From Plantactinospora alkalitolerans (GTDB taxonomy: Bacteria > Actinomycetota > Actinomycetes > Mycobacteriales > Micromonosporaceae): a DNA stretch of 43,232 nucleotides. The first letter of the stretch is position 1; each line of letters begins with the position of its first letter. The notes beneath the pieces were generated by a model. The model made no database searches. It was not told where the DNA came from and saw only the letters and a list, made by a program, of their open reading frames with translations. A program made the translations under genes and the position numbers. Location: NCBI RefSeq assembly GCF_015690345.1, contig NZ_JADPUN010000345.1, positions 1 to 43,232 on the forward strand, given 5' to 3'. Shown here in pieces: positions 11,560 through 37,174 of the stretch.

Positions 11560-11876
11560 CCGAGGCCACCTTCCGGCTGGACACGGCCGGTGCCGCCGCC
11601 GGCCCGGAGCTGTTCGGCGACCGGATCGACCCGGGTACGGGCGAACCGCAGGTAGAGCTGCGTGACGGCGAGCGCCGACACCAGTTGCGCCAGTGCCAGC
11701 ACGAGACCGACGTTGACGTTGCCGATGAAGGGCTCCGCGAGCAGGTCCGGCGCCCAGCCGGCCAGCGCGATCAGCAGCACCCACCACGCGATCACCGACG
11801 TGGTGCCCAGCGCGACGAAGCGCCGTACCCGTCGGCGCAGCTCACCGTAGCGCGGATCGTAGGGATGGTCCGTCAT
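11556..11876 (-). CDS. DUF485 (YjcH-like) membrane protein
   Basis: This 106-residue protein has two hydrophobic helices (about residues 25-42 and 53-73) flanked by basic N-terminal and acidic/basic C-terminal regions, as in DUF485/YjcH proteins that accompany ActP symporters. ATG at 11876 has GGAAGG 8 bases upstream; a GTG at 11885 lacks room for a ribosome-binding site. It overlaps the aspartate kinase gene's 3' end by 35 bases and the symporter's start by ATGA. All three genes are therefore tightly coupled. Confidence 0.85.
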   Translation of the reverse strand: MTDHPYDPRYGELRRRVRRFVALGTTSVIAWWVLLIALAGWAPDLLAEPFIGNVNVGLVLALAQLVSALAVTQLYLRFARTRVDPVAEQLRAGGGTGRVQPEGGLG

Positions 11877-13188
11877 CAGTCTCACCTTCCTGTCCGTGGT
11901 ATGCGTGTGCGCCGTGGAGGCTCTCCAGGGCGAACGCCCGGTGCAGCACCCGGACGGCCCGTCCCTGCTGGTGCCGGGGTACCAGCACGGACATCCGGGT
12001 CTGCGAGGTGGACATCCACCCGACCGTGATGCCGGCTCCGGCCAGCGCCGCGGTCAGCAGCGCCGCGTACTCGGGGCGGTTGAGCAGTCCCATGCCGATC
12101 AGGGACACCTTCGCCACGTCGTCCCGGACCCGTAGCTCGCCGTCATGCGTCGCGACCAGAGCGTCCAGGGCTGCCCGTACCTCCGCGAGGTCGGACCGGG
12201 ACACGGTCAGCCCCACCCGGCAGCCATCCCGGTCGTCGGCCGAGCGCGCCACCTGGTCGACCGGAACCGAGCATCCGGCCAGGGCGGCGAAGATCTCGGC
12301 AGCAAGGTCGGATCCGTCGCGGCCGGCGGCACCGGCGCCGCAGCTGGCCTGAAGCCAGGCAACGTCCGGGTCGTGCGCCACGGCGACGACGGCACCCACA
12401 CTCTCCAGCACCGGGGCATCACTTCTCTCCACGATCACCGTTCCTGGGCCGCACGTCAGCGAGCCGCTGACGCGCAGTTGGATCCGGCGCAGCGCGGCCA
12501 GTTCGACCGCGCGGGAGTGCACCACCTTCGCGCCGGCGAACGCCATCTCGGCCATCACCGCCACGTCGACCACGGGGAGGATCCGGGCCGTCTCGACGAG
12601 CCGGGGATCGGCGGTGCACACGCCGCGTACATCGGTGTAGATCTCACAGCTGGCGGCACGCAGCGCCGCGCTGACCGCGACCGCGGTGGTGTCCGAGCCG
12701 CCGCGGCCGAGAGTGACGGTGTCGCCGCGGACGTTGCTGCCCTGGAACCCGGCTACCACCACCACCTTGCCCTCGTCGAGCCGGCGACGTACGGGATCGG
12801 GTTCGATCGACGTGATCATGCCGGCCCCGTGCCGCCCGGTCACCCGGATGCCGGCCTGCGCACCCGTCAACGACACCGCGTCGACGCCGAGGCGGCGCAG
12901 AGCCAACGCCAGCAGCGCGGCCGAGGCACACTCCCCGGTGGCCAGGAGCTGGTCGATCTCCCGCCCCGAGCCGGCGTCGCCGACCTGGGCGGCGAGCGCG
13001 AGCAGTCTGTCGGTCTCGGCGCCCCGGGCCGAGACGACGACGACCAACGACCTTCCACGGCCGTACGTCAACGCCGTCGACCGGGCGACCTGTTGGATCT
13101 GGTCCATCGTCGCCAGGGACGTGCCACCGTACTTGTGCACCAGGATCTCCACGCCTTGCAGCGTGCGGGGCCGGTGCCCGCCAGGCAT
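11842..13188 (-). CDS. lysC: aspartate kinase, pathway-associated
   Basis: This protein of about 448 residues phosphorylates L-aspartate to 4-phosphoaspartate, the first step to aspartate semialdehyde. It has the N-terminal KYGGTS motif (about residues 19-24), the nucleotide-binding GRGGSDTTA motif, the Tyr-Thr-Asp-Val-Arg-Gly-Val substrate strand, and two C-terminal ACT-type regulatory domains ending in the GMGLLNRPEYAALLTAAL region. GriI-type enzymes use aspartate semialdehyde, so a dedicated kinase beside the cluster makes sense as precursor supply. The ACT domains look divergent, which could mean altered feedback control; this cannot be judged by eye. The start could be the GTG at 13152 rather than ATG at 13188. 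It is divergent from the PhzE-type gene. Confidence 0.9.
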   Translation of the reverse strand: MPGGHRPRTLQGVEILVHKYGGTSLATMDQIQQVARSTALTYGRGRSLVVVVSARGAETDRLLALAAQVGDAGSGREIDQLLATGECASAALLALALRRLGVDAVSLTGAQAGIRVTGRHGAGMITSIEPDPVRRRLDEGKVVVVAGFQGSNVRGDTVTLGRGGSDTTAVAVSAALRAASCEIYTDVRGVCTADPRLVETARILPVVDVAVMAEMAFAGAKVVHSRAVELAALRRIQLRVSGSLTCGPGTVIVERSDAPVLESVGAVVAVAHDPDVAWLQASCGAGAAGRDGSDLAAEIFAALAGCSVPVDQVARSADDRDGCRVGLTVSRSDLAEVRAALDALVATHDGELRVRDDVAKVSLIGMGLLNRPEYAALLTAALAGAGITVGWMSTSQTRMSVLVPRHQQGRAVRVLHRAFALESLHGAHAYHGQEGETDDGPSLRSALR

Positions 13189-13204: not shown

Positions 13205-13343
13205 TCTCCCGCTGACCCTCGCCCGAGCGCCTGTCCGGTACGACGCCCCGGCCAGATGGCGGGATCGCGCGATGCGTCAGTGGCCGGCGGGGCGCCATCT
13301 TCAAATCCGGACGGATAGCCGAGCGGCGGTGGAGGACGAGCAG

Positions 13344-15884
13344 ATGGGCGTTGCCGAGGCGGTATTCGATCGGGTGTTGGCAGGCAGGGCGCCCGGCTTC
13401 GCCCTCCTGCACCGCCCCCGGTCCTCGACCGGGCCGCACGCGGTGGAGGTCATCGTCGGGCAGCCGACCACGATGCTCCGGTTGGCCGAGTTGCCGGTGC
13501 CGGTCGGTTCCACCGACCCGTGCCCCGGACGGATCGAGGCGGATGGCGGGGGCGGGGCCGCCGTGCTGGCGGCCATCCCCTACCGGCAGATCGTGGAGCG
13601 GGGCTATGCCTGCCGGGACGACCACGAACCGATCCGCGCCATCCCCGTCGAGGAACACAGCACGGTCCCGGTGGCGGAGGCGCTTCGCCGGCTGCCCGAC
13701 ACACCCGTCGAGTTCGACCGGGCCGGGTTCGACGTCGACGACCGGGCCTACGCCGAACTGACCCGGCGCGTTCTCGCCGAGGAGATCGGCCAGGGCGAGG
13801 GCGCCAACTTCGTCATCAAACGCGCGTTCACCGCGACCATCGCCGACTACTCCACCGACGCCGCGCTGGCGATCTTCCGTCGGCTGCTCACCGCCGAGAC
13901 CGGCGCCTACTGGACGTTCGTGATGTGCACCGGTGACCGCACCCTCGTCGGTGCCACCCCGGAGCGGCACGCGACCCTCGCGGACGAGACCGTGGTGATG
14001 AACCCGATCAGCGGCACCTACCGGTACCCCGCCTCCGGCCCACGCCTCGACGAGGTGATGACCTTCCTCGCCGACCGCAAGGAGGCCGACGAGCTCTTCA
14101 TGGTCGTCGACGAGGAACTCAAGATGATGGCGCGGGTCTGCCACGACGGGGGCCGCGTCGTCGGTCCGTACCTGCGCGAGATGGCGCGGCTGGCGCACAC
14201 CGAGTACCTCATCGAGGGGCACAGCGAACTGGACGCGCGGGACATTCTGCGCGCGACCATGTTCGCGCCGACGGTGACCGGAAGCCCGATCGAGAACGCC
14301 TGCCGGGTGATCGCCCGCCACGAGCCGGACGGACGCGGCTACTACAGCGGGGTACTGGCCCTGCTGGGCCGGGACGGCGCCGGCCGGCAGGCGATGGACT
14401 CGGCCATCCTGATCCGCGCCGCCGACATCACGGCCCGGGGCCGACTCAGCATCGGTGTCGGGGCCACGCTGGTGCGGCTCTCGGATCCCGACTCAGAGGT
14501 GGCCGAAACGCGGGCCAAGGCCGCGAGCATGCTGGCGGCGCTGGGCCTGACGGACGGGGTGGCGGTGCCGTCCCGGGAGGTCGAGTCGATCGCCGGTCAC
14601 CCGGCCGTCCGTACCGCCCTGCGGGAACGCAACCGGAGGCTGTCCCGATTCTGGCTGCAGCCCGCCTCGGCGCGGCAGCGGGCGGTGCCGCACCTGGCCG
14701 GGCGCCGGGTACTGGTGCTCGACGCCGAGGACACCTTCACGGCGATGCTGGAGCAGCAACTCGGCACCCTGGGCCTGGAGGTCGTCGTCCGGCCGTACCG
14801 GCAGGTGCCCGACCCACGCGACTTCGGCCTCGTCATCCTCGGACCCGGGCCGGGGGATCCCACCGACGGGGGCGATCCCAAGATAGCCGAACTGCGACGT
14901 CTCACCCGTGGCCTGCTGCGACAGGGCATCCCCCTGCTCGCCGTCTGTCTCGGTCACCAGGTCCTCGCCGACCAGTTGGGCCTGGAACTGGTCCGTCGGG
15001 ACATGCCGAACCAGGGCGTGCAACTCGACGTCGACCTCTTCGGCCGGCACGAGCGAGTCGGGTTCTACAACACCTTCGCGGCGCGGTGCGACCACACGGT
15101 CTTCGCCGACCCGTACGGATCCGGCACGGTCCGGGTCAGCCGGGAGCCGGCCCATGGTGAGGTCCACGCGCTGCGCGGCGCCCGGTTCGCCTCGGTGCAG
15201 TTCCACCCGGAGTCGCTGCTCACCCAGAACGGTCCCGCGATCCTGCGTGAACTGGTCGAGCCGCTGCTCGACCCGGAGCCGGCGCTTCCGCATCCGGGGT
15301 TACCGGTGTTCCTGCGGGAATTCCTCCGCCATCCGGCCCGGACCGGTGCGGTGGCGCCGAGTTCGCGATGGCTCGCCCGCCGGGCGGTGTGCACGGTGCC
15401 CGAGCGCGGCGACCCGGTGGTGGTGGAGTTGGGCCCGGGTACCGGTTCCTTCACCTCGGCCATCCACCGCCGCTTGTGGGGGCGCGGCCAACACATCGCG
15501 ATCGAGCTGAACCCGCGCTTCGCCGACCTGCTGCGACATCGGTTCCCGGATCTCGACGTGGTGACCGGGGACGCGGCGGATCTACCCAAGGTTCTCGCCG
15601 ACCGAGGGTTGGGCCGGGCCGACGTCATCGTGAGCGCGCTGCCGTGGTCGGTCTTTCCGGGCGCGGTGCAACGCCGGCTGATGGACGCGATCCGCGAGAG
15701 CCTCGCCGACGGCGGCGCCCTGACCGCCTTCGCCTACCTGCACGCCATCTGGTCCCCACCGGCCCGCCGGTTCCGGGCGTTGCTCCGGGAGGCGTTCGAC
15801 GAGGTCCTCGTCGGCCGCACCGTGTGGTCCAACCCGCCGCCCGCGCTGGTGTACACGGCACGGCGACCGAGGGAGCGCCGATGA
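13344..15884 (+). CDS. phzE: PhzE-type ADIC synthase fused to a PmtA-like methyltransferase
   Basis: This 846-residue protein has three parts. Residues 1 to about 430 form a chorismate-utilising (TrpE/PhzE) domain. Residues about 455-645 form a class I glutamine amidotransferase, with GPGPGDP near 502, the nucleophile in CLGHQ (Cys535) and FHPES near 620. Residues about 650-846 resemble phospholipid N-methyltransferases: GAVAPSSRWLARR, the SAM motif ELGPGTG near 696, then GDAADLP and SALPWS. The first two parts match PhzE (about 630 residues) and should make 2-amino-2-deoxyisochorismate from chorismate and glutamine. The methyltransferase tail is extra and its target is unknown. ATG at 13344 follows GGAGG by about 8 bases. 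The gene overlaps the next by ATGA. Confidence 0.9.
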   Translation: MGVAEAVFDRVLAGRAPGFALLHRPRSSTGPHAVEVIVGQPTTMLRLAELPVPVGSTDPCPGRIEADGGGGAAVLAAIPYRQIVERGYACRDDHEPIRAIPVEEHSTVPVAEALRRLPDTPVEFDRAGFDVDDRAYAELTRRVLAEEIGQGEGANFVIKRAFTATIADYSTDAALAIFRRLLTAETGAYWTFVMCTGDRTLVGATPERHATLADETVVMNPISGTYRYPASGPRLDEVMTFLADRKEADELFMVVDEELKMMARVCHDGGRVVGPYLREMARLAHTEYLIEGHSELDARDILRATMFAPTVTGSPIENACRVIARHEPDGRGYYSGVLALLGRDGAGRQAMDSAILIRAADITARGRLSIGVGATLVRLSDPDSEVAETRAKAASMLAALGLTDGVAVPSREVESIAGHPAVRTALRERNRRLSRFWLQPASARQRAVPHLAGRRVLVLDAEDTFTAMLEQQLGTLGLEVVVRPYRQVPDPRDFGLVILGPGPGDPTDGGDPKIAELRRLTRGLLRQGIPLLAVCLGHQVLADQLGLELVRRDMPNQGVQLDVDLFGRHERVGFYNTFAARCDHTVFADPYGSGTVRVSREPAHGEVHALRGARFASVQFHPESLLTQNGPAILRELVEPLLDPEPALPHPGLPVFLREFLRHPARTGAVAPSSRWLARRAVCTVPERGDPVVVELGPGTGSFTSAIHRRLWGRGQHIAIELNPRFADLLRHRFPDLDVVTGDAADLPKVLADRGLGRADVIVSALPWSVFPGAVQRRLMDAIRESLADGGALTAFAYLHAIWSPPARRFRALLREAFDEVLVGRTVWSNPPPALVYTARRPRERR

Positions 15885-16567
15885 TCTACGAGTTCGGCGG
15901 GCTGGACGAGCACCGCTGGCGCGTCGTCGAGGTGCCCGACGGCAGGGGCGGCACCCACCGCTACCGCGACCGCAACGCCCGGGTCCGGGTCGCGGATGGC
16001 CGGCTGTACGCCACGGTGAATCCGTTCACCCGCTTCCACGACAGCGATCCCCGGCAGAACAACGCGAAGCTGCTCTACCTGTCGACCGAACGCGTGGCGA
16101 CCCCCGGGCACGGCGTGGTCGTGTGTGAGGCGGAGATGGCGGTGCTGACCCACGGGCAGATCCCGTTCGACCTCGTCGACGCGTACGGCACCCTGAACGT
16201 CGTCGACTTCCGTACCGGCATGGTGCTCAACTGCGCCGCCACCAACGACACCGTCTACCTCGTCGTCGAGCGGCTGCCAGTCGGCGGCGGCCAGGGCTTC
16301 CGGTACCGGGTCGTGCTCGACGTACCCACCACGCCGGGACAGCCGCACCGGTACGCGGTCGGCTACCGGCGGGACCGGCGGGAGGCCGTGATCCACGTCG
16401 ACGGCGCGCTCGTGTACCGGACCCGTACCCCGGTGGCCGTGCACGGCTTCCAACTCGGGGTGGGAATCTTCTCCGCCCGTGACCTCGACCGGTATCCACG
16501 GCACGAACGCGAGCACGGCCAGGGCGCCTCCGTCCGGTGGGGACCGTGGGAGGTCCGGTCCGGATGA
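15881..16567 (+). CDS. DUF6081-like protein of unknown function
   Basis: This 228-residue soluble protein has no signal peptide or membrane helix. Its pattern of aromatic-rich strands (FTRFHDSDP, then YLSTERV, then a C-terminal GVGIFSARD and WGPWEV) suggests a jelly-roll or concanavalin-like beta-sandwich. It resembles, from memory only, the actinobacterial family DUF6081. It is locked between the PhzE fusion and the MFS-BVMO fusion by ATGA overlaps on both sides, so it is certainly expressed with them. Possible roles are ligand binding or an unrecognised enzyme of the pathway; no catalytic motif is visible. Confidence 0.75.
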   Translation: MIYEFGGLDEHRWRVVEVPDGRGGTHRYRDRNARVRVADGRLYATVNPFTRFHDSDPRQNNAKLLYLSTERVATPGHGVVVCEAEMAVLTHGQIPFDLVDAYGTLNVVDFRTGMVLNCAATNDTVYLVVERLPVGGGQGFRYRVVLDVPTTPGQPHRYAVGYRRDRREAVIHVDGALVYRTRTPVAVHGFQLGVGIFSARDLDRYPRHEREHGQGASVRWGPWEVRSG

Positions 16568-19500
16568 CCGGCGCGTTCCTGGTGGCGGTCCGGGCGCTCG
16601 CCGTGCTCGGGATGTCCGCCGTCGTGGTGCCGACCGTCCTCGTGGCCCACGACTACTACCGGGGTGGCGCCGGCGCTTCGATGGCCGGGCTGCTCTGGCT
16701 GGTCCCCGCCGGGCAAATCGGGGTGGCGGTCTTCCTCCGGGCCCGGGTGGCGCTCACCGAACGGCGCGGCCCCGTGCCGCCCCGCCGCCGGCCGACCGGG
16801 CTCCTGCTCGCGGCCCTGCTCGTTCTGTTGATCATCGACGTGTCGAAGGCGTGGAGTCTCGGCTTCGCGCTGCCCGGAATGCGGGAGGAGTTCGCCCTCA
16901 CCGAGGGCCAGGCGCTGCTGCTGCCGCTCGCCTGTCTGCTCGGGTCGGTCCTGTCGTCGTTCTACTTCGGCGCGCTCGCCGACCGGTTCGGCACCCGTAC
17001 GATGGCATTCTTCAGCGGGCTGGGCTGCACCGGGACCGCGCTGTGCGGCGTGACCGGCAGCTTTCCGGCCGCAGCGGCGTGCTGTTTCGCGCTCGGCCTC
17101 GCCGTCGGCGGGCTCGTGCCGATCGTCTTCGCGCTGCTGCCGTACCTGTTGCCGAGACGTCGGGTGACCACCGCCGGCCTGCTGCTGGCCGGAGCCGCCA
17201 CGACCGGCGGGTACCTCCTGGCGTACCTGCTCGCGCAGCGGTTGCTGCCGGAGTACGGCTGGCGCGGCCTGTGGCTTTCCGGAGCCGTCACCGGCCCGCT
17301 GCTGCTCGCCGGCACCCTGGTGTTGCCGGACTGGGTTCCGGGCTACTCCGGACCACCCCGTCATCTGCCGACGCTCGGCCGGCGTCGACCGGCGCTCGTC
17401 CTCTACGGCCTGATGGCCGGGGCGCTCTGCGTCGGCTACGTCAACCAGGGGCCGTCCCTGGCCGGATACGCCGGTCTGGTCGGCGGTGACGATGTCGTGC
17501 AGGCGTTCCAGGCCGCCCTGGTGCTGCCCGCCGCGCTGGGGATGGCGTTCGCGCTGCGCCGGCTCCCGGCCGCCCGGTGCCTGCACGCCGTCGGCGCCTG
17601 GGCTGGCTGGCTCGTGATCGTGTGTGCCGCCGCGCTGGCCGGGGGCGTGACCGGCGCCCCGATCGCGGTACTGGTCGTCGCGGTCGGCGTGGCCACCAAC
17701 CTCATGGTGGTCGCGGTGCTCGGCGTCGCCTGGCAGTGGTACGGGCGCCCGGCCGGAGTGGCCGGGATCGGGGTGGTGCTCGGGGTGACGAAGTTCGGCG
17801 CCCTGGTCGGGCCGGCGATGATCGTCGATTCGGTCTCGGTGGCGATCCCGCTCGGTGCCGGAACGATCGCCGCGGCCGCCTTCGTCCAGCAGACCTTCGG
17901 CACACCGTTGCCCGGGCCGGGCGGCACCGTCCCGCCGCCCGCCCCGTCGAGCCGGCACGTGCACGTCGTGATCGTCGGCGCCGGGTTCGCCGGACTGGGC
18001 ATGGCGATCCGGCTGGCCCAACAGGGCATCCGGGACTTCGTGGTGCTCGACCGCGCCACGGACGTCGGCGGCACCTGGCGGGACAACACCTATCCGGGCT
18101 GCGCCTGCGACGTGCCGTCGAACCTCTACTCCTACTCGTTCGTGCCGAACCCGGACTGGAGCCGCTGCTTCTCGCCGCAGCCGGAGATCCACCGCTATCT
18201 GCGCCGGTGCGTGGCCCGGTACCGGCTGGCCGCACATCTGCGGCTGGGCCAGGAGTTGCGTACCGCACGCTGGGACGACGGTGCCGGGCACTGGGTGATC
18301 CGCACTGGTCGGGTCGAGTTGACGGCCGGAGTGCTGATCTGTGCCACCGGACCGCTCAGCGAGCCGGTGACCCCCAGGCTGACGGGCGTGGAGTGGTTCA
18401 CCGGGACCACGTTCCACTCGGCGGCCTGGGACCACCGCCACGACCTGCGCGGTGAGCGGGTCGCCGTGATCGGCACCGGCGCCTCGGCGGTGCAGTTCGT
18501 TCCGGAGATCGTCGACGCGGTCGCTCAGCTGTACGTGTTCCAGCGCACGCCGCCGTGGGTGGTTCCCCGCTGGGACCGACCGCGCTCGCCGCTCACCCGG
18601 CGCGCGTTCCGGGCACTGCCGGCGTTGCAACGCCTGGCCCGCTCCGTCGTCTACTGGGGGCGGGAGGCGTTGATGCTGGGCCTCGGTGTCGATCATCGGC
18701 TGCTGAAGGTGGCCGAGTGGCTGGCCCGCTGGCACCTTCGTCGACAGGTCCGGGATCCGGCCCTGCGAGCGGCCCTGACCCCGAGGTACGCCGTCGGCTG
18801 CAAGCGCCTGGTGGTGTCCAGCGACTACTACCCGGCGCTGACCCGCCCCGACGTCGAACTCGTCACCTCGGCGGTACGGGAGGTGGGGGAGCGGTGGATC
18901 GTGACCGCCGACGGGACCCGCCGAGCGGTCGACACGATCATCTACGGCACCGGCTTCGCCCTCGCGAACACTCCCGTGGCGGGGCGACTGTACGGGCGGA
19001 ACGGCCGCAACCTCGCCGAGGAGTGGGCCGGTGGCGCCGCCGCGTACCTCGGCACCGCGGTCGCCGGCTTCCCCAACCTCTTCCTGCTGGCCGGTCCGAA
19101 CAGCGTGCTGGGGCACAACTCGGTGATCCTGGGTGTCGAGGCGCAGATCAGCTACGTGCTGTCCGCCCTGCGTACGATGCGCCGACGCGGACTCGCGGCG
19201 GTCGAGGTGCGTCCGGAGGTGCAGGACTCGTACAACGACGGCCTGCGGACGCGGATGTGGGACACGGTCTGGCTGTCCGGCTGCCGCAGTTGGTACCTCG
19301 ACGCGGCTGGCCGCAACACCACGCTGTGGCCCGGTTTCACGGCGTCGTTGCGCCGCCGGACCCGCCGCTTCGACCTGTCCGACTACCACCTGCTGCGCGG
19401 GACCGGGGAGTCGGCGGGGGGCCGGTCGGTGCACCGGCGCCGGGCGGACCGGCATCGGCTGGAGCGTCGTCGGGCGGGCCGGCGTCGGCTGCGCCGGTCG

Positions 19501-19587
19501 GTGGCCCGCCGTCGGGTGCGGTGGGTGCGGCGACCCGCGCCGCGTCCCGGGACGCGGCGGCGAGCACGACGATCGCGACCACGCTGA
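16564..19587 (+). CDS. MFS transporter fused to a Baeyer-Villiger monooxygenase
   Basis: This 1007-residue protein has two halves. Residues 1 to about 455 are membrane helices (probably two extra helices, then a 12-helix MFS core) with the MFS loop motif GALADRFGTR near residue 138. Residues about 465-1000 form a complete FMO/Baeyer-Villiger-type flavoprotein: VIVGAGFAGLG near 470, GGTWRDNTYPGCACD near 501, the BVMO-like motif FTGTTFHSAAW near 612, and a second Rossmann motif GTGASAVQ near 635. The reading frame is continuous with no internal ribosome-binding site, so it is one polypeptide. Oxidation coupled to export is an attractive reading but unproven. The basic low-complexity tail overlaps the convergent MFS gene by 251 bases. 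Confidence 0.85.
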   Translation: MTGAFLVAVRALAVLGMSAVVVPTVLVAHDYYRGGAGASMAGLLWLVPAGQIGVAVFLRARVALTERRGPVPPRRRPTGLLLAALLVLLIIDVSKAWSLGFALPGMREEFALTEGQALLLPLACLLGSVLSSFYFGALADRFGTRTMAFFSGLGCTGTALCGVTGSFPAAAACCFALGLAVGGLVPIVFALLPYLLPRRRVTTAGLLLAGAATTGGYLLAYLLAQRLLPEYGWRGLWLSGAVTGPLLLAGTLVLPDWVPGYSGPPRHLPTLGRRRPALVLYGLMAGALCVGYVNQGPSLAGYAGLVGGDDVVQAFQAALVLPAALGMAFALRRLPAARCLHAVGAWAGWLVIVCAAALAGGVTGAPIAVLVVAVGVATNLMVVAVLGVAWQWYGRPAGVAGIGVVLGVTKFGALVGPAMIVDSVSVAIPLGAGTIAAAAFVQQTFGTPLPGPGGTVPPPAPSSRHVHVVIVGAGFAGLGMAIRLAQQGIRDFVVLDRATDVGGTWRDNTYPGCACDVPSNLYSYSFVPNPDWSRCFSPQPEIHRYLRRCVARYRLAAHLRLGQELRTARWDDGAGHWVIRTGRVELTAGVLICATGPLSEPVTPRLTGVEWFTGTTFHSAAWDHRHDLRGERVAVIGTGASAVQFVPEIVDAVAQLYVFQRTPPWVVPRWDRPRSPLTRRAFRALPALQRLARSVVYWGREALMLGLGVDHRLLKVAEWLARWHLRRQVRDPALRAALTPRYAVGCKRLVVSSDYYPALTRPDVELVTSAVREVGERWIVTADGTRRAVDTIIYGTGFALANTPVAGRLYGRNGRNLAEEWAGGAAAYLGTAVAGFPNLFLLAGPNSVLGHNSVILGVEAQISYVLSALRTMRRRGLAAVEVRPEVQDSYNDGLRTRMWDTVWLSGCRSWYLDAAGRNTTLWPGFTASLRRRTRRFDLSDYHLLRGTGESAGGRSVHRRRADRHRLERRRAGRRRLRRSVARRRVRWVRRPAPRPGTRRRARRSRPR

Positions 19588-29069: not shown

Positions 29070-29827
29070 GGGGCGTCCTCTCTGAGCAGTCGAACGGCGC
29101 TGGCCCAGGTGACCCGGTGCAGCTCGTCGTCGGTCAACGCCAGCGCCCGGCACTTGGCCAGTTCGACCCCGAAGTCCTGTGCCGGGTACTCCGAGCCGAA
29201 CACCACCCGGTCGGCGCCGAGCCGCTGCACCGCGACCCGGGCCACCGAGGTGTAACAGCCGGACGTCTCGGCGAAGATGTTGCCGGTCTCGGCGATCGTC
29301 GCCACGGCGTGGAAGTCGATGCCGATGAAGCCACAGTGGCCGAGGACGAACCGCGCCTCGGGAAACTTGCCCGCGAGGGTCACCAGGTCGCCGACGGTCG
29401 CACCGGGTCGTCCCAGACACACGACGTAGACGGGGTGCCCGGCCTGGGCCGCGACCTCGACCAGGGCGACCGTGCGCGGGTCGTCGAGTCCGACTCCGTG
29501 CACCGCCGGGGAGATCTCCAGCCCTCGGTACGACGGCGCGGCGTCGAGATAACGGCGGGGCTGGCGGTGCGGGTTGGCGAAGTAGAACGGTGTCAACCGG
29601 CCGCCGGAGCGAGCAGAGACGGCGAGTACACGCTCGTTGTCGGCGTCGGTCTCCAGGTGGCCGCCGAAGACGATCTGCCGGGCGAGCCGGACCGGGTCTA
29701 TCAGCCCGCCCGCGCAGGCCACCCCACGGGTGATGCCGTGCCGGTCCATCTCGCCCAACAGCCGATCCGCCGCCACGGAGGGGTCCTCGGGTACCGGACC
29801 GATCCGCAGGTGGAAGTCGTAGATCAT
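29066..29827 (-). CDS. amidohydrolase-fold protein (NatAM/BomJ-like candidate)
   Basis: This 253-residue protein belongs to the amidohydrolase 2 TIM-barrel family. It starts with MIYDFHLRIG, where the usual Asp-x-His-x-His metal site has become Asp4-Phe-His6-Leu-Arg8, so one His is missing. Later landmarks are FVLGHCG and VFGSEYP, the latter with Glu where the family usually has Asp. It is coupled to the ligase and to the GriI-like gene by ATGA overlaps. In nataxazole- and A33853-type pathways an amidohydrolase-like enzyme closes an aminophenol ester to a benzoxazole. The changed ligands fit a cyclase that is not a plain hydrolase, but I cannot say whether known benzoxazole cyclases share them. 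Confidence 0.82.
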   Translation of the reverse strand: MIYDFHLRIGPVPEDPSVAADRLLGEMDRHGITRGVACAGGLIDPVRLARQIVFGGHLETDADNERVLAVSARSGGRLTPFYFANPHRQPRRYLDAAPSYRGLEISPAVHGVGLDDPRTVALVEVAAQAGHPVYVVCLGRPGATVGDLVTLAGKFPEARFVLGHCGFIGIDFHAVATIAETGNIFAETSGCYTSVARVAVQRLGADRVVFGSEYPAQDFGVELAKCRALALTDDELHRVTWASAVRLLREDAP

Positions 29828-30630
29828 CGGCTGGCCGCCGTCAACGGGGTGACCAGACGTACATCCTGGTGGATCCGGGCCGCGAGTCGTCGGGCCATCA
29901 CACCTGGATCGGGAGCCTGGAAGACGTTGCGTCCCATCGCGACGCCGCTGGCTCCGGCCGAGAGCACGTCGTCCAGATACGACAGGACGGCGGCGGTGTC
30001 GGTACGCTTCGCGCCGCCGGCGACCACGACCGGGATCGGGCAGGACCGGATGATGTCGCGCATCTCGTCGGCCGAACCGGCGTACACGGTCTTGACGATG
30101 TCGGCGCCCAGATCGGCGGCGACCGTGACGGCGTGCGCGACCAGATCCGGGTCGGATGGATCGGTGATCGCCGGGCCGCGGGGGTACACCATGGCGAGTA
30201 GCGGGACGTTCCACCGATCGCACGCGTCGGCCACCGTGGCGAGATCGGCGATCTGCCGTGCCTCCTCCGACGATCCCAGGTTGACGTGCACGCTGACCGC
30301 GTCCGCGTTCAGCCTGAGGCACTCCTCGACCGTGCCGACGAGGTACTTCGCGTCCGGGTCCGGCGCCCGCGCCGTGCTCGCCGACAGGTGGACGATCAGC
30401 GATGTCCGGGTGAACCGGTGGTGGTCGACGAAGCGGAGGCTGCCTTTGTGCAGCACCACCGCGTCGACCCCGTTGCCGGCCAGTTGGCCGACCAGATGGT
30501 CGAGACCCCTGCCGTCGGTGAGCGGACCGTTGGTGACCGAGTGGTCCAGCGGCACGATGAAGATCCGCCTGCCTCCACCGAACAGCCGTCCGAGCCGGGC
30601 CTGCCGGCCGAAAGCCGCGTTGAGCACCAC
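29824..30630 (-). CDS. griI: GriI-like aldolase for 3,4-AHBA biosynthesis
   Basis: This 268-residue class I aldolase of the DhnA/FbaB type has VPLDHS (residues 26-31), a central MVYPRG strand (148-153), and a DIVKTVYAG strand with Lys180 as the likely Schiff-base lysine. GriI condenses aspartate semialdehyde with dihydroxyacetone phosphate to a seven-carbon amino sugar phosphate, the first step to 3-amino-4-hydroxybenzoate. Fructose-bisphosphate or ADH-type aldolases share the fold, but a GriH-like gene nearby and the aspartate kinase support GriI. The GTG at 30630 follows GGAGAGGGG; upstream codons look non-coding. It is first in a six-gene operon ending with the antiporter. Confidence 0.9.
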   Translation of the reverse strand: MVLNAAFGRQARLGRLFGGGRRIFIVPLDHSVTNGPLTDGRGLDHLVGQLAGNGVDAVVLHKGSLRFVDHHRFTRTSLIVHLSASTARAPDPDAKYLVGTVEECLRLNADAVSVHVNLGSSEEARQIADLATVADACDRWNVPLLAMVYPRGPAITDPSDPDLVAHAVTVAADLGADIVKTVYAGSADEMRDIIRSCPIPVVVAGGAKRTDTAAVLSYLDDVLSAGASGVAMGRNVFQAPDPGVMARRLAARIHQDVRLVTPLTAASR

Positions 30631-30917: not shown

Positions 30918-31349
30918 ATGACCGGTAGCACCGCGATCGGTTCGAAGATGCGGGCGGAGACCGCCGAGCACGCCGGGACGGGGAAGAAGACCAATGTCGC
31001 GCTGTGGGTCCTCCAGGTGCTGGTGGCCAGCGTCTTCTTTCTCGCCGGCCTCAGCAAGATGATCTTCCCGCTGGAGATCTTCCACCAGATCGGCTGGGGG
31101 ATGTGGTTCCAGTACCTGACCGGCGTGCTGGAGATGGTCGGGGCGGTCGCGCTGCTGATCCGGCGCACCTCCGGCGTGGCCGCGCTGGCCTTCGTCGGCC
31201 TGGCGATCTGCGCCGTGAACTTCCACGTCTTCGTCCTGGACTCCTCGCTGATTCCCATCGCCCTGCTCGGAATCTGCGCCGCGATCATCGCGTACGGCCG
31301 TCGACACACCATCTCCGCGTTGCTCGGCGACGTGTTCGGACGGAGGTGA
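30918..31349 (+). CDS. DoxX-like membrane protein
   Basis: This 143-residue protein has a hydrophilic N-terminus of about 25 residues and four hydrophobic helices, with the DoxX-like FLAGLSKMIFP motif after helix 1 and LTGVLEMVGAVALL in helix 2. DoxX-family proteins are membrane subunits or partners of quinone-linked or redox systems, and often of unknown role. ATG at 30918 follows GGGAGG. It is divergent from the griI-like operon and lies 4 bases before an atypical SDR gene, with which it forms an operon. A redox or membrane-stress role near a quinone-prone aminophenol product is a guess. Confidence 0.8.
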   Translation: MTGSTAIGSKMRAETAEHAGTGKKTNVALWVLQVLVASVFFLAGLSKMIFPLEIFHQIGWGMWFQYLTGVLEMVGAVALLIRRTSGVAALAFVGLAICAVNFHVFVLDSSLIPIALLGICAAIIAYGRRHTISALLGDVFGRR

Positions 31350-31353: not shown

Positions 31354-32055
31354 ATGTCCACGGGCAAGCAGGTGCTTGTCATCGGTGGCACGTCCGGCAT
31401 CGGGCGGGCCACCGCCGAGTTCTACGCCCGCGCCGGACACCGGGTGATCCTCTCCGGCCGTGACGCCGACCGGGCCAAGGCGGTCGCCGTCGACATCGGC
31501 GGGCACAGCCGGGGCATCGGCGTCGACCTGGCCCTCCCGGCGGAGATAGCCGGCTCGCTGCGGGACACCGGACACGTCGACCACCTGGTGCTCGCCGCGG
31601 TGGAACGCGACCAGAACTCCGTCCGGGCCTACGATCTCGACCGGGCGATCCGACTGACGACCCTGAAGTTGGTCGGCTACACGGAGGTCGTGCACGCGGT
31701 GGCCGGACGCATGACCGGCGGTGGCGCGGCGGTGCTCGTCGGCGGGCTCGCCATGACCCGGCCGTACCCGGGCTCGACGACCGTGACCACGGTGAACGGT
31801 GGCGTCGCGTCGCTCGTCCGCACGCTCGCGTTCGAACTGGCACCGCTGCGGTTCAACGCCGTACATCCGGCGCTGGTCGCCGACACGCCGTACTGGCAGG
31901 ACAAGCCGCAGGCGGTCGAGGGCGCGCTCAAACGGACGCCGACCGGACGGCTCGCCACCATGGACGACATCGTCGACGCCATCGCGTTCCTGCTGGGCAA
32001 CCGGGCGATGAACGGCGCCAACCTCACCATCGACTGCGGCGCCACCCTCGGCTGA
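31354..32055 (+). CDS. atypical SDR lacking the catalytic Tyr/Lys
   Basis: This 233-residue Rossmann protein keeps the SDR cofactor motif GGTSGIG (residues 11-17), a conserved NAVHP segment near 168 and the C-terminal end IDCGAT. Where classical SDRs have Tyr-x-x-x-Lys, the aligned segment TTVTTVNGG gives Val144 and Asn148; the upstream Ser is also replaced by Gly. I recall related actinobacterial SDRs with similar changes, so this is a subfamily and not decay. It may bind NAD(P) and act by another mechanism or as a non-catalytic partner. ATG at 31354 follows GGAGGTGAC. It is co-transcribed with the DoxX-like gene and ends at a strong terminator. Confidence 0.82.
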   Translation: MSTGKQVLVIGGTSGIGRATAEFYARAGHRVILSGRDADRAKAVAVDIGGHSRGIGVDLALPAEIAGSLRDTGHVDHLVLAAVERDQNSVRAYDLDRAIRLTTLKLVGYTEVVHAVAGRMTGGGAAVLVGGLAMTRPYPGSTTVTTVNGGVASLVRTLAFELAPLRFNAVHPALVADTPYWQDKPQAVEGALKRTPTGRLATMDDIVDAIAFLLGNRAMNGANLTIDCGATLG

Positions 32056-32086: not shown

Positions 32087-32128
32087 ACCGGTCGAGTTGC
32101 CGCCCGATCAGGCGGCAACTCGACCGGT
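32087..32128. terminator. 18-bp perfect-stem bidirectional terminator
   Basis: ACCGGTCGAGTTGCCGCC (32087-32104) and its exact reverse complement (32111-32128) surround a 6-base loop, CGATCA. It lies between the convergent SDR and flavin monooxygenase genes and overlaps the first base of the latter's stop codon. It is the strongest hairpin I see in the window. Confidence 0.85.
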
Positions 32129-33300
32129 CAGTCTTGCCGAGGAGCCGGAGGGACGGTGCAGCGCTCCGCCGCCGCCAGCTCCGCGTCGTAGCCGAACAGC
32201 CACCGCTTGTTGCGGATGTCCTGGGCGTTCCCGACTCCGGCGGCTGGACGGTGCAGGACCCGGGCGTTGGCCCGGGACAGCGCCTGCACCTCGGCCGTAC
32301 GGGGCCGGCGCAGCTCCTCGTAGCGACGCAGTGCCTGGGTCGACACCTCGGGGCGCAGACACGCGGCCAGCGTCGCGGCGTCCTCGATCGCCTGGTTGGC
32401 TCCCTGCGCCATGAACGGCAGCATCGGGTGCGCGGCGTCGCCGAGCAGCGTGAGCGGGCCGGCACCCCAGCGGTCGGTGGCGTCCCGGTCGTGCAGCGCC
32501 CACCGGTGCACCCGGTCCGCGGCGGTGAACAACTGGCCGACCTCGTCGGTCCAGCCCCGGTAGGCTTCAGCCAGATTCTCGATCCGCCCCTCCGCCCGCC
32601 AGGATTCGCCCAACGGATCATCGCTCGGCACCGTCGCGGCGAAGCTGACCAGCTCCCCCCGGCGCACGGGATAGCAGACGCAGTGCCGACCCGGCCCAAC
32701 CCAGATCAGCACCCGCGGGTCGGCACGCTGGAACGGCACCATCCGGGCCGGTACCAGCCCTCGGTAGACGAGCTGTCCGGAGTAGCGTGGCCGGTCGGCG
32801 ACGAGCGTCGCCCGGATCACGGAGCGGATTCCGTCGGCCCCGACCACCACATCGGCGGTCACGTCGTCCCGATCCTCGAAGCGCAGCACTGCCCGATCCT
32901 GGCCGGCGGTGAGTCCGGTACAGCGGAACCCGAGCCGCAGCAGGTCCGGATCGAGCGTCCGCCGGAGCCCGTCATGCAGGTCGGCACGGTGGACCGTGTA
33001 GTACCGCGCCCCGTAGAGCTGCTCGCACCGGGCGCCGAGTTCGGTACGGTCCAGCAACGCCCCGTCATCCCAGCGACGCAACTCGACGGCCGACGGTTGG
33101 ACCGCCACCTCGGCGAGGTACCGGCCGAGACCGAGGCGGTCCAGCAGCCGGGTGGCGTTCGGGGCGAGTTGGAGCCCCGCGCCGACCTCGGTCAGCCGCG
33201 ACGTCTGCTCGTACACCCGAGGCCGCAGGCCCGCGCGGGCCAGCGCCGCCGCGGCGGCGAGGCCGCCGATCCCGCCGCCGACGATGGCGATGTGCCGCAC
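32128..33300 (-). CDS. salicylate hydroxylase-like FAD monooxygenase
   Basis: This 390-residue class A flavoprotein has an N-terminal GGGIGGLAAA motif (residues 8-17), a VVGADGIRS segment near 155 with the DG motif, and GDAAHPMLPFMAQGANQAIED near 280 (typical of salicylate and 6-hydroxynicotinate hydroxylases), here given in parts: GDAAHP and GANQAIED. Such enzymes hydroxylate an aromatic ring, often replacing a carboxylate. Here the substrate could be 3,4-AHBA, 3-HAA or the condensed product. The GTG at 33300 follows GGAGAAGTGACC and lies 3 bases after the GriH-like stop, so the two are co-translated. This links it to the 3,4-AHBA branch. Confidence 0.87.
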   Translation of the reverse strand: MRHIAIVGGGIGGLAAAAALARAGLRPRVYEQTSRLTEVGAGLQLAPNATRLLDRLGLGRYLAEVAVQPSAVELRRWDDGALLDRTELGARCEQLYGARYYTVHRADLHDGLRRTLDPDLLRLGFRCTGLTAGQDRAVLRFEDRDDVTADVVVGADGIRSVIRATLVADRPRYSGQLVYRGLVPARMVPFQRADPRVLIWVGPGRHCVCYPVRRGELVSFAATVPSDDPLGESWRAEGRIENLAEAYRGWTDEVGQLFTAADRVHRWALHDRDATDRWGAGPLTLLGDAAHPMLPFMAQGANQAIEDAATLAACLRPEVSTQALRRYEELRRPRTAEVQALSRANARVLHRPAAGVGNAQDIRNKRWLFGYDAELAAAERCTVPPAPRQD

Positions 33301-33303: not shown

Positions 33304-34407
33304 TCACTTCTCCAGGCAGAACTCGTTGATGGCGTACCCGACGTGTCGGGCCTCGACCGGCAGGAAGCCGAGCACCCTGTCACCGGGGCGGAGCTCGGTG
33401 GTGTTGAGTACCTGTCCACCCGGTCCGAGGACCCGGACGTGCCAGTCGTGCTGGACGATCAGGTTCACCGGCTGACCGGACGGGGCGACCGCGTCGATGC
33501 TCAGCAGCGGCCGTGTTTCGATCTTCACCCGCCCCACGGTGACCAGGCGGGTACGGCCGGCGGAGTCGACCGCGAGCACCCGACCGCCGGAGGTGAGTTC
33601 GCTGAGGTAGCTGGTTCGTTCCGCATGCGCCAGGGTGTAGGAGTGCAGTGCACCGGCGTTCACCCGGAACGGCCGGGTCGGCATGTACGGCAGGGGATGG
33701 GTCTCGCTGCAGCAGAGCACCATGCCCCGGGCGTGCGAGCCGATGAGCAGTCCCTCGTCCTCCCGGAAATGAGAGCACGTGTCGACACAGACCCGGTCGC
33801 CCATTCCGACGTCGGAGACGGCGGTGACGGTCAGCTCGACCAGTTCGACATCGGCGACGTGGGACTGGGCGGCCGTTCGCAGCCGGGTGGTGTCGCCCAC
33901 GTCGGTGGCGGCCATCATGACGCCGTCGGACCCGCGTTCCAGCACACCGAACACGATCTCCGCCTCGGCCGGGTCGGCCACCATGGTCACGATGCTGCCG
34001 TCGGTGCGGTCGGCGGCGGCCAGGACGATCTCCAACGGAATCTTCGTCGGGTCGTGGAAGTGCAACACGCTCCAGGTGTCGGTCCGGGCGATGTCGCAGG
34101 CCCGTTCGAGCGTGGCCGAGTCGGTGATCTCGACGTACCGGCCGACCTCCAGATCCGGATGCTCGCGGAGCACGTCGGCGGGCCGGACTCCGGACCGGAC
34201 GTCGAGGATCAGCACGTCGATGCCGTCGAAGTCGGGCGGCAGTGGCTGGTCCAGCGAGAAGTACACCCTGGTCAGCGTCGGAGGCAGTCCGGACAGGTCG
34301 TCGGGCACGTCGGACACCACGGCGTCCATCCGTTGATGGACCGCCTCCTCCAGGATCGCCTTCCGGTTCTCCTCCGCACGACGTACGTCGAGCCAGCACA
34401 GTCTCAT
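33304..34407 (-). CDS. griH: GriH-like enzyme (3-dehydroquinate synthase II family)
   Basis: This 367-residue protein matches the DHQ synthase II/GriH family. Its C-terminal half has GMGDRVCVDTCS (residues 201-212), GLLIGSHARGMVLC, and the conserved YMPTRPFRVNAGALHSY segment (241-257). GriH turns the GriI product into 3-amino-4-hydroxybenzoate. ATG at 34407 follows GAAGGGAGTCC. The gene lies between the LAL regulator and the flavin monooxygenase, separated from the GriI-like gene by about 2.7 kb on the same strand; in the clusters I know, the two genes are adjacent. An archaeal-type DHQ synthase role is less likely in an actinomycete. Confidence 0.9.
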   Translation of the reverse strand: MRLCWLDVRRAEENRKAILEEAVHQRMDAVVSDVPDDLSGLPPTLTRVYFSLDQPLPPDFDGIDVLILDVRSGVRPADVLREHPDLEVGRYVEITDSATLERACDIARTDTWSVLHFHDPTKIPLEIVLAAADRTDGSIVTMVADPAEAEIVFGVLERGSDGVMMAATDVGDTTRLRTAAQSHVADVELVELTVTAVSDVGMGDRVCVDTCSHFREDEGLLIGSHARGMVLCCSETHPLPYMPTRPFRVNAGALHSYTLAHAERTSYLSELTSGGRVLAVDSAGRTRLVTVGRVKIETRPLLSIDAVAPSGQPVNLIVQHDWHVRVLGPGGQVLNTTELRPGDRVLGFLPVEARHVGYAINEFCLEK

Positions 34408-34438: not shown

Positions 34439-37174
34439 TCAGGCGGCGCTGAGGGTGTTGGCGAGGTACTGCCGGGTCAGCTCGACCCGGCTGTTGATAC
34501 CGAGCTTGGCGAAGACGTGCCGGAGGTGGCTGTCCACCGTGTGCGGCGACAGGAACAACCTGTTCGCGGCCTCCCGGTTGGTCATCCCTTCGGCGATCAC
34601 CTCGACGACGCGTAGCTCGGACTGGGTCAGGCTGAGCCATCCCTCGACCGGCCGGGGCGGCGCGGCGAGGTTCACTCCGCACAACAGCCGCCGGGCGCGA
34701 ACGACGTCGTAGGTGGCGCCGCTGCGGCCGTACGTCTCGACCGCCTCCCCAAGCAACGCCGCCGCCTCGGTGAGGTTGCCGGCACCCTGCTCGGCCCGGG
34801 CGGCGTCCTCGAGCGCCGAGGCCCGCGCGAGGGGTCGGGTACTGGTCCGGAAGTGATCCACGGCGCGGCGCAGGGCCGGCAGGTCGCCGCGTAGCACCCC
34901 GTCTGCGTGCGCGGCCGCTCCGGCCAGCGATGCCACGCTCGGGTTGTGGTCGGCCAGGCAGCGTGCCGTTGCGGCAACCGCCTCGGCCATGCTCTGCTCG
35001 CCGGCCCGGCGGGCGATGCGGACCAGGGCCGGTGCGGCCTGTGGCTGCTCGGTGAGCAGCAGTGCGCGGGAGGCTGTCCCGGCGTACACCCAGGCGAGTT
35101 TGTCCAGCGCTGCCGCTGGTTCGCCGCCGGCCTCATCGAGGGCGGCACTGGCCCAGGCCAGGTTCACCGCCGGGACGCCGACGCTGCCATCGGTCGCGGG
35201 GGCATGTCGTAGATGGGTTCGCGCCACCGCCAGGTCGTCCCGGCGGATCGCGATCTGTGCCAACAGTGCCCGCAGCACGACCAGTAGCTGGGGTGGGGCA
35301 TCGTTGTCGACGAGGTCGAGCGCCGCGCCGGCCTCGTCACCGGCCTCGGCCAGCCGACCGGCCGCCGCGCAGAGCTCCGCCCGGTGATAGTGCCAGAGCG
35401 CCTGTGACCAGTCCGGGCCGAACCGGGCGGCGCCCCGCCGCGCCGCCGTGTAGACGACGTCGGCCTCGGCCAGCCGGTCCGCGCCGGTCAGACCCCGAGC
35501 GAGCCAGAGCCAGGGCTGCGGTGGACAGGTCGGGTCGACCGGATCGGACGCGGGTAGGTAGGGCCGATCATGGTGCACCATCTCAACCGGCTGCCGCACA
35601 CCCGATTCGACCGGGTCGGCGCCGACGAGCTGTGCGTGTGCCTGCACGGTCAGCAGCTCCGCGCGGATCGCGGTGGGCAGGCCGGGCCGGTCGAGGGCAC
35701 GCCGCGAGTAGTGCACGGCGGCCACGTTGTCGCCAACACACTGGACGGCCTCGGCGAGGCCGAGCAGGAGTCGGGCCTCCGCCTGCGGGGCGAGACCCGC
35801 GCCGAGTGCCAGCTCACCCAGCTGCCGGGCTTCCGGCAGCCGACCGGCGGAGGCCAGGATGCGCACGGCCTCCGCGATCAGTTGGGGGCGGTCGGCTCCC
35901 TGCTCGCCGAGCTGGTCGAGTACGTGCACCACCACGTCGGCAGCGGCGGCCGGGTCGGGTCCGGCCGGAGGTGGCCCCGTCGGCTCACCGGCAGGTCCGG
36001 GTCGGACGGGTGTCCTCGGCCGCGGCACCGGCCGGTTGGGTGCCTTCGGTCCGGCGGCCGGCCGGGCGCGGGTCGCCGGCTCGGGCTCCACCGGCCTGCC
36101 ACCCCGCGACAGGTGGACGGCGACCTCGTCCGGCGGACGACCCTCCTGTTGCGCCATCCGGGCCGCCTCGCGGTGCAGCGCCAGCCGCACGGGCCGGCAG
36201 GTACGGCGGTAGACGGCCTCGCGGACGAGGTCCTGGTGGAAGTCCAGCTCCCCGCCGCGGTCGGTCAGCATGCCGGCGTCGACCAGTTCCGTCGTCGCCG
36301 GGACGACGTCGACGGCGCCGCGGCCGACCAGTCCCGCCGCCTCGTGCACGGTGAAGGGCCGGTCGAGGACCGCGCAGGCCTGTAGTAGGCGACGTGCCTC
36401 GTCGGTGAGGTCGTGCAGCCGTCGGTCGACCTCGTCGAGAAACGTCGTGGGCATCTCGTCCCACCGACCGTGCCGGGCGACGGTGCCGAGTAGTTCGTTG
36501 AGCAGGAACGGGTTGCCGCCCGCGCGATTGGCGAGGGCGAGCAGTTGGGGTCCGGGTGGGTTGCGCAGCACGGTCAGGCAGAGTTCGGCCACGGATTGCT
36601 CGTCGAGGGGGCCGAGCGGTAACCGGCAGGCGCCCTCGTCCACCAGGCGGTCGATCACCACCCGGCCGGGTGCGTCGGGCCTCGGTGCACGGCTGGCCAC
36701 CAGCCAGAGGATGCGGGAGTGGGCGAGTGCCGGCACCAGCGCGGCCAACACGACGGCGCTGAGGTGGTCGATCCATTGTGCGTCGTCGAGCAGCAGGACG
36801 ACGGGCTGGTTCGTCGCGGATCGTCCGAGCTGTTCGCTGAGGGCTCGGACCAGTTCCACCGGGTTGGGTTCGTGTCCGTTCAGGTCCGACGACAGGGTTG
36901 CGTGGTCGGCTCTGGTCGGTACCCCGGAGGTGAACGGGACCAGCGTGCTGAGCGGCGCGGCCCGGTCCAGTGCGCTGGCCCGTCCGGGAATTACCGCCAT
37001 TCCGTGGGCGACGGCCAGCGCCGTCCCCTCCTCGAGCAGTCGGCTCTTGCCGATGCCGATCGGCCCCTGGATGAGCACACAGCGTCCCGCCCCCCGCGTT
37101 ACGGTCGCCATTTCTCGGCTCAGTACGTCGAGTGTGGCTTTCCGGCCCACGATTGGAGATCCGTCCCCATTCAC
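34439..37174 (-). CDS. LAL-type LuxR-family regulator
   Basis: This 911-residue regulator has an N-terminal AAA/STAND ATPase domain with a Walker A motif GPIGIGKS (residues 37-44) and Walker B VVLLLDDAQWID (125-136), a Pro-rich linker at about 370-430, a long helical (TPR-like) middle, and a C-terminal LuxR helix-turn-helix (about 848-905: LTQSELRVVEVIAEGMTN and SPHTVDSHLRHVFAKL). Members of this class usually switch on secondary metabolism. The GTG at 37174 follows GGGGGAGGG; the longer ATG start at 37213 lacks such a site. It heads a minus-strand run with the GriH-like and FMO genes, so it is the likely pathway activator. Confidence 0.9.
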   Translation of the reverse strand: MNGDGSPIVGRKATLDVLSREMATVTRGAGRCVLIQGPIGIGKSRLLEEGTALAVAHGMAVIPGRASALDRAAPLSTLVPFTSGVPTRADHATLSSDLNGHEPNPVELVRALSEQLGRSATNQPVVLLLDDAQWIDHLSAVVLAALVPALAHSRILWLVASRAPRPDAPGRVVIDRLVDEGACRLPLGPLDEQSVAELCLTVLRNPPGPQLLALANRAGGNPFLLNELLGTVARHGRWDEMPTTFLDEVDRRLHDLTDEARRLLQACAVLDRPFTVHEAAGLVGRGAVDVVPATTELVDAGMLTDRGGELDFHQDLVREAVYRRTCRPVRLALHREAARMAQQEGRPPDEVAVHLSRGGRPVEPEPATRARPAAGPKAPNRPVPRPRTPVRPGPAGEPTGPPPAGPDPAAAADVVVHVLDQLGEQGADRPQLIAEAVRILASAGRLPEARQLGELALGAGLAPQAEARLLLGLAEAVQCVGDNVAAVHYSRRALDRPGLPTAIRAELLTVQAHAQLVGADPVESGVRQPVEMVHHDRPYLPASDPVDPTCPPQPWLWLARGLTGADRLAEADVVYTAARRGAARFGPDWSQALWHYHRAELCAAAGRLAEAGDEAGAALDLVDNDAPPQLLVVLRALLAQIAIRRDDLAVARTHLRHAPATDGSVGVPAVNLAWASAALDEAGGEPAAALDKLAWVYAGTASRALLLTEQPQAAPALVRIARRAGEQSMAEAVAATARCLADHNPSVASLAGAAAHADGVLRGDLPALRRAVDHFRTSTRPLARASALEDAARAEQGAGNLTEAAALLGEAVETYGRSGATYDVVRARRLLCGVNLAAPPRPVEGWLSLTQSELRVVEVIAEGMTNREAANRLFLSPHTVDSHLRHVFAKLGINSRVELTRQYLANTLSAA

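Follow-up and report, generated by a model that had tools for sequence, protein, structure and literature searches.

A predicted mixed-benzoxazole cluster in Plantactinospora alkalitolerans belongs to a conserved family carrying two aminohydroxybenzoate routes

The 43,232-nucleotide stretch of Plantactinospora alkalitolerans DNA analysed here (the window) is the entire contig NZ_JADPUN010000345.1 of a 9.2-Mb draft genome, and at about 9.9-37.2 kb it carries a cluster in which a gene set for 3-hydroxyanthranilate (3-HAA), a gene set for 3-amino-4-hydroxybenzoate (3,4-AHBA), a NatL2-type ligase and an amidohydrolase-fold protein stand together. As judged from sequence, this cluster belongs to a real, conserved family of putative two-precursor benzoxazole clusters, a variant on the known ones, which recurs in dozens of actinobacteria. 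We propose, with a probability of about 0.6, that its product is a mixed benzoxazole, for which 3-HAA is adenylated, joined to 3,4-AHBA, closed to 2-(2-amino-3-hydroxyphenyl)benzoxazole-5-carboxylic acid and then decorated.

Genes were called by the guanine-plus-cytosine content at codon positions, and families were assigned by Pfam and NCBIfam scans of the open reading frames (ORFs) of the window. For each gene named in the earlier note on this DNA, an open frame was recovered at the position given there or close to it. The genes on which the argument depends are as follows, with counts referring to the 63 loci described further below.

11842..13188, minus strand: aspartate kinase, predicted to supply aspartate semialdehyde for 3,4-AHBA (NF005155 372 bits, cut-off 346; 35/63 loci)
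13272..15884, plus strand: PhzE-like aminodeoxyisochorismate (ADIC) synthase with a C-terminal OlsG/PmtA-like methyltransferase domain (PhzE 3R74, 681 bits; start possibly 13344)
20911..21924, minus strand: O-methyltransferase (PF00891; top PDB match 6C5B, 295 bits)
22035..23312, plus strand: flavin-dependent halogenase (PF04820, WxWxIP motif; PDB matches 8ZOP, 3E1T and CmlS 3I3L)
26122..26823, minus strand: PhzD-like isochorismatase, predicted to convert ADIC to dihydro-3-hydroxyanthranilate (DHHA) (3R77 236 bits, PhzD 1NF9 233 bits)
26860..27636, minus strand: EntA/DhbA-like dehydrogenase, predicted to convert DHHA to 3-HAA (TIGR04316 346 bits, cut-off 300)
27756..29069, minus strand: NatL2-type adenylating, ester- or amide-forming ligase (NatL2 6SIW 583 bits, AjiA1 6WUQ 581 bits)
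29066..29827, minus strand: Amidohydrolase-2-fold protein, predicted benzoxazole-closing enzyme (PF04909; model confidence 93.7)
29824..30630, minus strand: GriI-like aldolase, predicted 3,4-AHBA step 1 (PF01791; BagB_FevI NF041223 401 bits, under the cut-off of 500; start possibly 30768)
32128..33300, minus strand: flavin monooxygenase, candidate decarboxylative aromatic hydroxylase (8RQH 269 bits, 8X38 224 bits; 49/63 loci)
33304..34407, minus strand: GriH-like 3,4-AHBA synthase (PF01959; BagC_FevH NF041224 541 bits, under the cut-off of 750)

For the route from chorismate to 3-HAA via DHHA, all three enzymes (PhzE, PhzD and DhbA/EntA-like) are present in the window. The PhzE-like protein has the Cys and the His/Glu motifs of the glutamine amidotransferase, with its C-terminal domain scoring 113 bits on NF041658, under the cut-off of 350, and the PhzD-like protein carries the motifs HDMQ and KWRYS. 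A PhzE/PhzD/DhbA-type route of this kind to 3-HAA is known from limazepine (PMC5958127). For the other precursor, the GriI-like and GriH-like proteins lie above the subfamily cut-offs of NF005556 and NF002625, respectively, and the GriH-like protein is the sole PF01959 match in the draft genome. It is noted that 3,4-AHBA is made from aspartate semialdehyde and dihydroxyacetone phosphate (PMC12118335), a route that the GriI-like and GriH-like proteins together with the aspartate kinase would fit. At the level of sequence, two complete putative precursor routes are thus encoded in the window.

A search of 151 genomes with the amidohydrolase gave a clear group at 49-61% identity, followed by a gap down to 36%. 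From the 21 relatives in that group 20 loci were fetched, G102 with its internal stop being left out; GriI, GriH, the amidohydrolase and at least part of the ligase are present in 20/20 and PhzE in 18/20, one of the two PhzE-less loci being a contig of 4.5 kb. Named genomes were then scanned by amidohydrolase motifs, which gave 63 loci, partly overlapping the first set, with flanks of at most 10 kb and some contigs ending sooner, so that absence from a flank is no proof of absence. Since the loci were fetched by the amidohydrolase alone, the partner genes were unselected: the ligase was found in 62 loci, GriI and GriH in 58 each, the flavin monooxygenase in 49, PhzE in 39, PhzD in 38, EntA in 37 and the aspartate kinase in 35. 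GriI, GriH, amidohydrolase and ligase are contiguous in 50/63 loci, which excludes a chance grouping, and the ligase adjoins the amidohydrolase on the same strand in 57/63. The flanks of 40/63 loci contain two or more of the three 3-HAA genes, in 39 cases together with GriI and GriH, and all seven genes are present in 27. The two precursor pathways that the earlier note had read in the window are therefore genuine and recur together, and the gene set is not a one-off of this strain. In the window there is a four-base overlap between GriI and the amidohydrolase gene and again between the latter and the ligase gene, making translational coupling of the three likely, with GriH displaced from this block to a place beside the flavin monooxygenase gene, a DoxX/SDR gene pair standing between. 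No published cluster with both routes and the ligase/amidohydrolase pair was found in the open-licence PMC literature; subscription papers could hold one.

The ligase had been described in the earlier note as PaaK-type and in one operon with the amidohydrolase gene, with a grouping among catabolic enzymes as a possible objection. Such a grouping is not seen for the ligase, the match to NatL2 6SIW over residues 8-436 scoring 583 bits vs 117 bits to PaaK 2Y27. We aligned 60 family ligases, the window included, leaving out L049, L057 and L091 (best segment below 330 amino acids) as well as L099, in which no ligase was found; where a frame was split, the best segment alone was used, without joining. 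Of the 21 residues that PMC7204872 names, 20 had the expected letter under the NatL2 numbering used, the exception being Arg68, which fell on Gln. The window ligase keeps the zinc site Cys248/His254/Cys308/Cys310, whose CHCC ligands occur in 60/60, and Lys418, which occurs in 58/60 and in the NatL2-type site comes from the partner subunit. The hydroxyl of the acyl 3-HAA is contacted by Glu235 in NatL2, whose acceptor site consists of Thr128, Thr135, Arg156, Trp178, Ala211 and Ala212, with Arg156 binding the acceptor carboxylate (PMC7204872); in ClxA, an enzyme adenylating 3,4-AHBA, Tyr takes the place of residue 235 (PMC12519233). Residue 235 is Glu in 51/60 family ligases and Asp in 9/60. Glu235 is present in every one of the 40 ligases, the window's among them, that have two or more 3-HAA genes nearby, and the remaining 20 are 11 Glu and 9 Asp, giving a Fisher test p of 1.1e-5 with kinship ignored. 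At the acceptor side, the window retains Thr128, Thr135, Arg156 and Trp178 and has Gly211/Gly212 unlike Ala211/Ala212 of NatL2; over the family, position 212 is Gly in 60/60, position 211 is Gly in 51, Ala in 8 and Val in 1, and Arg156 is kept in 60/60. Because Glu235 tracks the 3-HAA genes and Ala212 of the acceptor pocket is replaced by Gly, the favoured arrangement has 3-HAA in the acyl role and 3,4-AHBA in the acceptor role, opposite to the 3,4-AHBA acyl unit that had been suggested before.

Bearers of the Glu-type ligase belong to the Micromonosporaceae, Streptomycetaceae, Thermomonosporaceae, Pseudonocardiaceae, Nocardiaceae, Glycomycetaceae, Geodermatophilaceae and Nocardiopsidaceae. 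L070, in a gammaproteobacterial metagenome-assembled genome, and L099, in a Pseudobacteriovorax one, are members outside the actinobacteria, which suggests a wider spread of the family, with contamination of the assemblies being possible. On the ligase tree, for which no root was inferred, NatL2 and AjiA1 fall among rows carrying Glu235, at low support, and on this ground the ligases using 3-HAA only may derive from two-precursor ones. In Nocardiopsis sp. JB363, two ligases, one Asp235-type and one Glu235-type, and two amidohydrolases lie within about 25 kb on one contig (L067 and L093), with PhzE, PhzD and EntA beside the L093 amidohydrolase; perhaps this double locus gives a two-ring product.

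The amidohydrolase frame is concealed within a longer ORF, and with the start at 29827 it gives a PF04909 (Amidohydro_2) protein of 253 amino acids. An amidohydrolase-fold gene next to the ligase gene is present as the earlier note had it, though not one of the NatAM type: NatAM has about 494 residues (PMC7204872), a length that together with the absence of any PDB match at E 0.001 rules out the window protein as a NatAM homologue. None of the 10 PDB matches up to E 10 was named NatAM, the presence of a NatAM chain in the PDB copy used being unchecked. (A metallophosphoesterase at 23282-24610, considered as a candidate for this gene, is no amidohydrolase.) The AlphaFold model has a mean predicted local distance difference test score (pLDDT) of 93.7, and among the best 50 Foldseek matches listed the top ones are 5-carboxyvanillate, 2,6-dihydroxybenzoate and 2,3-dihydroxybenzoate decarboxylases, with other amidohydrolase-2 folds also among them. 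The intact zinc ligands of a NatAM-type enzyme (HxH, two His and Asp) are not seen, the equated positions being H6, R8, C137, H164 and E213. We take R8 and C137 to be at positions that usually hold metal ligands in the amidohydrolase superfamily, and residues 8 and 104 to lie in strands (2-9 and 102-105 of the model) that bear such ligands.

Residues 8/104/106 are R/E/S in 51/51 clusters with a Glu235 ligase and H/K/A in 7/9 clusters with an Asp235 ligase, the exceptions being L070 (R/E/A) and L079 (R/E/S), and the R/E and H/K forms are separated by one supported branch (SH-aLRT 97). The ligase and the amidohydrolase thus differ together, with the usual zinc site altered in the window type. 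It is noted that one of the two peptide motifs of the scan requires E104 and S106 and the other E213, residue 8 and the ligase lying outside both, so that the constancy of E104, S106 and E213 is partly selected; 11 of the 55 R/E loci have the first motif only while all 8 H/K loci were found via the second (E213) motif, and H/K forms may be undercounted. If the metal site is rebuilt, closure may not use the usual zinc chemistry. A fuller statement, that in a hetero-benzoxazole family with 3-HAA acyl and 3,4-AHBA acceptor the ring is closed by an Amidohydro_2 enzyme whose metal site (8 His/Arg, 104 Lys/Glu) is rebuilt in step with ligase Asp/Glu235, is offered only tentatively, with the odds against it.

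Nocardiopsis lucentensis DSM 44048, from which nocarbenzoxazoles A-G were obtained (Sun 2015, cited through PMC8951824 and PMC10180399), has a related locus. There, at L080, the amidohydrolase gene (50% identity) lies beside a ligase gene that is the only close homologue of the window ligase (58%), the other match at E 1e-20 being 34%, and the pair adjoins an alcohol dehydrogenase gene and, where the contig ends, part of an aldehyde dehydrogenase gene. The AspK-GriI-GriH genes are on a different contig, C600, and L080 and L109 form a candidate nocarbenzoxazole locus divided over two contigs. Nocarbenzoxazole G has been synthesised from 4-hydroxy-3-nitrobenzoate, the last step being reduction of an ester to the alcohol (PMC8951824), and from this starting material its benzoxazole half has the 3,4-AHBA pattern. 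Unlike the window, with its Glu235 and R8/E104, the N. lucentensis proteins have Asp235 and H8/K104, and no PhzE was found in that genome at E 1e-60. We infer that this candidate locus makes the nocarbenzoxazoles.

Based on these data, the following pathway is proposed. PhzE, PhzD and the EntA-like enzyme would convert chorismate to 3-HAA, and 3,4-AHBA would arise through the aspartate kinase, GriI and GriH, with aspartate semialdehyde and dihydroxyacetone phosphate as its sources. In its NatL2-like pocket the ligase would adenylate 3-HAA and then transfer it onto the 3,4-AHBA phenol; closure of the ester to the benzoxazole acid named above would fall to the amidohydrolase-fold protein. The halogenase and the methyltransferase(s) would then decorate the closed ring, the halogenase, the O-methyltransferase and the PhzE-fused methyltransferase domain being predicted to bring chlorination and methylation. 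The flavin monooxygenase may hydroxylate the 3,4-AHBA unit, possibly with decarboxylation. It is nearest to tropone 2-monooxygenase and decarboxylative vanillate 1-hydroxylase (8X38 being the latter enzyme), and since its gene adjoins GriH in the window and in L070, 3,4-AHBA is hinted at as a candidate substrate. Homologues of it occur in 48/51 Glu-type loci vs 1/9 Asp-type loci, the Asp-type L075 and L085 carrying other FAD_binding_3 enzymes.

Several points weigh against the mixed benzoxazole. The Glu/Asp235 pattern corresponds to only 2-3 changes on the ligase tree, and a sign test on independent pairs for Glu235 and the 3-HAA genes is not significant. L097 has an Asp-type ligase yet carries PhzE, PhzD and EntA about 18-22 kb away. 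There are 11 Glu-type loci with fewer than two 3-HAA genes in the flanks; a genome search for PhzE, which covered all of these except L076, gave matches on other contigs for L062, L066, L072, L088, L089, L090 and L094, and none for L077. In L042 and L092, which are also among the 11, a PhzE lies on the same contig at 12-16 kb from the amidohydrolase. Moreover, the top-ranked decarboxylase folds, the altered zinc ligands and the putative nature of the nocarbenzoxazole link count on the same side, and Arg156, kept in all 60 ligases, argues against decarboxylation before ligation. One independent case, L079, supports the association: it is Asp-type among Glu-type tree rows and its flanks lack 3-HAA genes, its PhzE being located about 200 kb away on that contig.

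One alternative is that the ligase joins two 3-HAA units into a homodimeric benzoxazole, as for A33853, nataxazole and microechmycin, and that 3,4-AHBA has another use, serving for instance as a third unit or going into a product of its own. The high score to NatL2, the same acyl-pocket Glu and the placement of NatL2 and AjiA1 among the Glu-type rows agree with it, but the acceptor pocket is Gly/Gly instead of Ala211/Ala212, the draft genome has one match only to the window ligase at E 1e-20, the window ORFs scanned include no amidohydrolase of the NatAM type, and the ligase-amidohydrolase pair with GriI/GriH also occurs in genomes where no PhzE was found. We consider it unlikely. Another has the amidohydrolase-fold protein decarboxylating an aromatic acid, the ligase giving an ester or amide of the bagremycin/ferroverdin kind and no benzoxazole being formed. 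The Foldseek ranking would be explained, and the ligase scores 581 bits on the BagE_FevW model (cut-off 800); R8 and C137, however, occupy usual metal-ligand positions of the superfamily, and the same family is present in the nocarbenzoxazole producer, making this improbable. A closoxazole-like product, with 3,4-AHBA as both acyl and acceptor unit and 3-HAA feeding another product, appears more improbable still: GriI/GriH are the most constant partners after the ligase and actinobacteria are stated to contain ClxD homologues (PMC12118335), whereas the ClxA acyl site Tyr218/Asn226 (counterparts of 235 and 243) is set against Glu/Asp235 in the 60 family ligases and Ser243 in 54, closoxazole uses two ligases (PMC12118335) where the window has one, and 40/63 loci have two or more 3-HAA genes nearby. 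Finally, a dibenzoxazepinone of the mycemycin type is rejected, as the anthranilate there comes from tryptophan and the coupling enzyme differs (PMC5867642), and so is a phenoxazinone by oxidative dimerisation, since none of the window ORFs scanned belongs to a tyrosinase or copper oxidase family.

Among characterised systems, nataxazole/AJI9561 (NatL2, AjiA1, NatAM) shares with the mixed-benzoxazole cluster the ligase family, the zinc site and Glu235, and differs in having two 3-HAA units, a larger, distinct amidohydrolase and Ala211/Ala212. Microechmycin (mich, Micromonospora) has 3-HAA genes, a BomJ/BomN-like pair and an O-methyl group in its product, but is described as a 3-HAA dimer, with no mention of 3,4-AHBA genes in the excerpted text (PMC9864271). 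In closoxazole (clx/pfx), 3,4-AHBA genes occur with an AMP ligase and a condensing amidohydrolase; the differences are its two ligases, 3,4-AHBA in both halves, the ClxA acyl site and the absence of 3-HAA genes from its description as excerpted (PMC12118335, PMC12519233). Limazepine has the same type of 3-HAA route (Lim4/5/6), feeding a pyrrolobenzodiazepine nonribosomal peptide synthetase instead (PMC5958127). If our reading is right, a large benzoxazole group (about 60 genomes, several families), of which no description was found in the open-licence literature, becomes accessible from genomes, with a candidate locus for the nocarbenzoxazoles and natural Glu235 vs Asp235 ligase pairs for reading acyl selectivity, and the question arises how an amidohydrolase fold with altered metal ligands forms the heterocycle.

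The other genes of the cluster are as follows.

9943..11787, minus strand: sodium:solute symporter (SSF), probable cluster transporter (PF00474; 34-45% homologues in 14/63 loci)
15881..16567, plus strand: DUF6081 protein (PF19559; 14/63 loci)
16564..19587, plus strand: major facilitator superfamily (MFS) transporter-flavin monooxygenase fusion (MFS_1 and Pyr_redox_3/FMO-like, one frame)
19337..20881, minus strand: MFS transporter (PF07690)
30918..31349, plus strand: DoxX-like membrane protein (PF13564; 6/63 loci)
31354..32055, plus strand: short-chain dehydrogenase/reductase (SDR) (PF13561; 16/63 loci)
34439..37174, minus strand: LAL-family LuxR regulator (AAA_16 and GerE)

Homologues of the halogenase occur in L042 and L082 (62%) and L063 (61%). 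The methyltransferase domain fused in frame to the PhzE-like gene is a separate gene near PhzE in L043 and L059 (57-59% homologue), which also have 59-60% homologues of the MFS-flavin monooxygenase fusion; in the window the 3' end of the fusion overlaps the convergent MFS gene. In related clusters the DUF6081 and SDR genes are often neighbours on opposite strands. Note also that a three-subunit operon of the carbon monoxide dehydrogenase/xanthine oxidase type lies at 39426-43230, up to the contig end, and is probably unrelated to the cluster.

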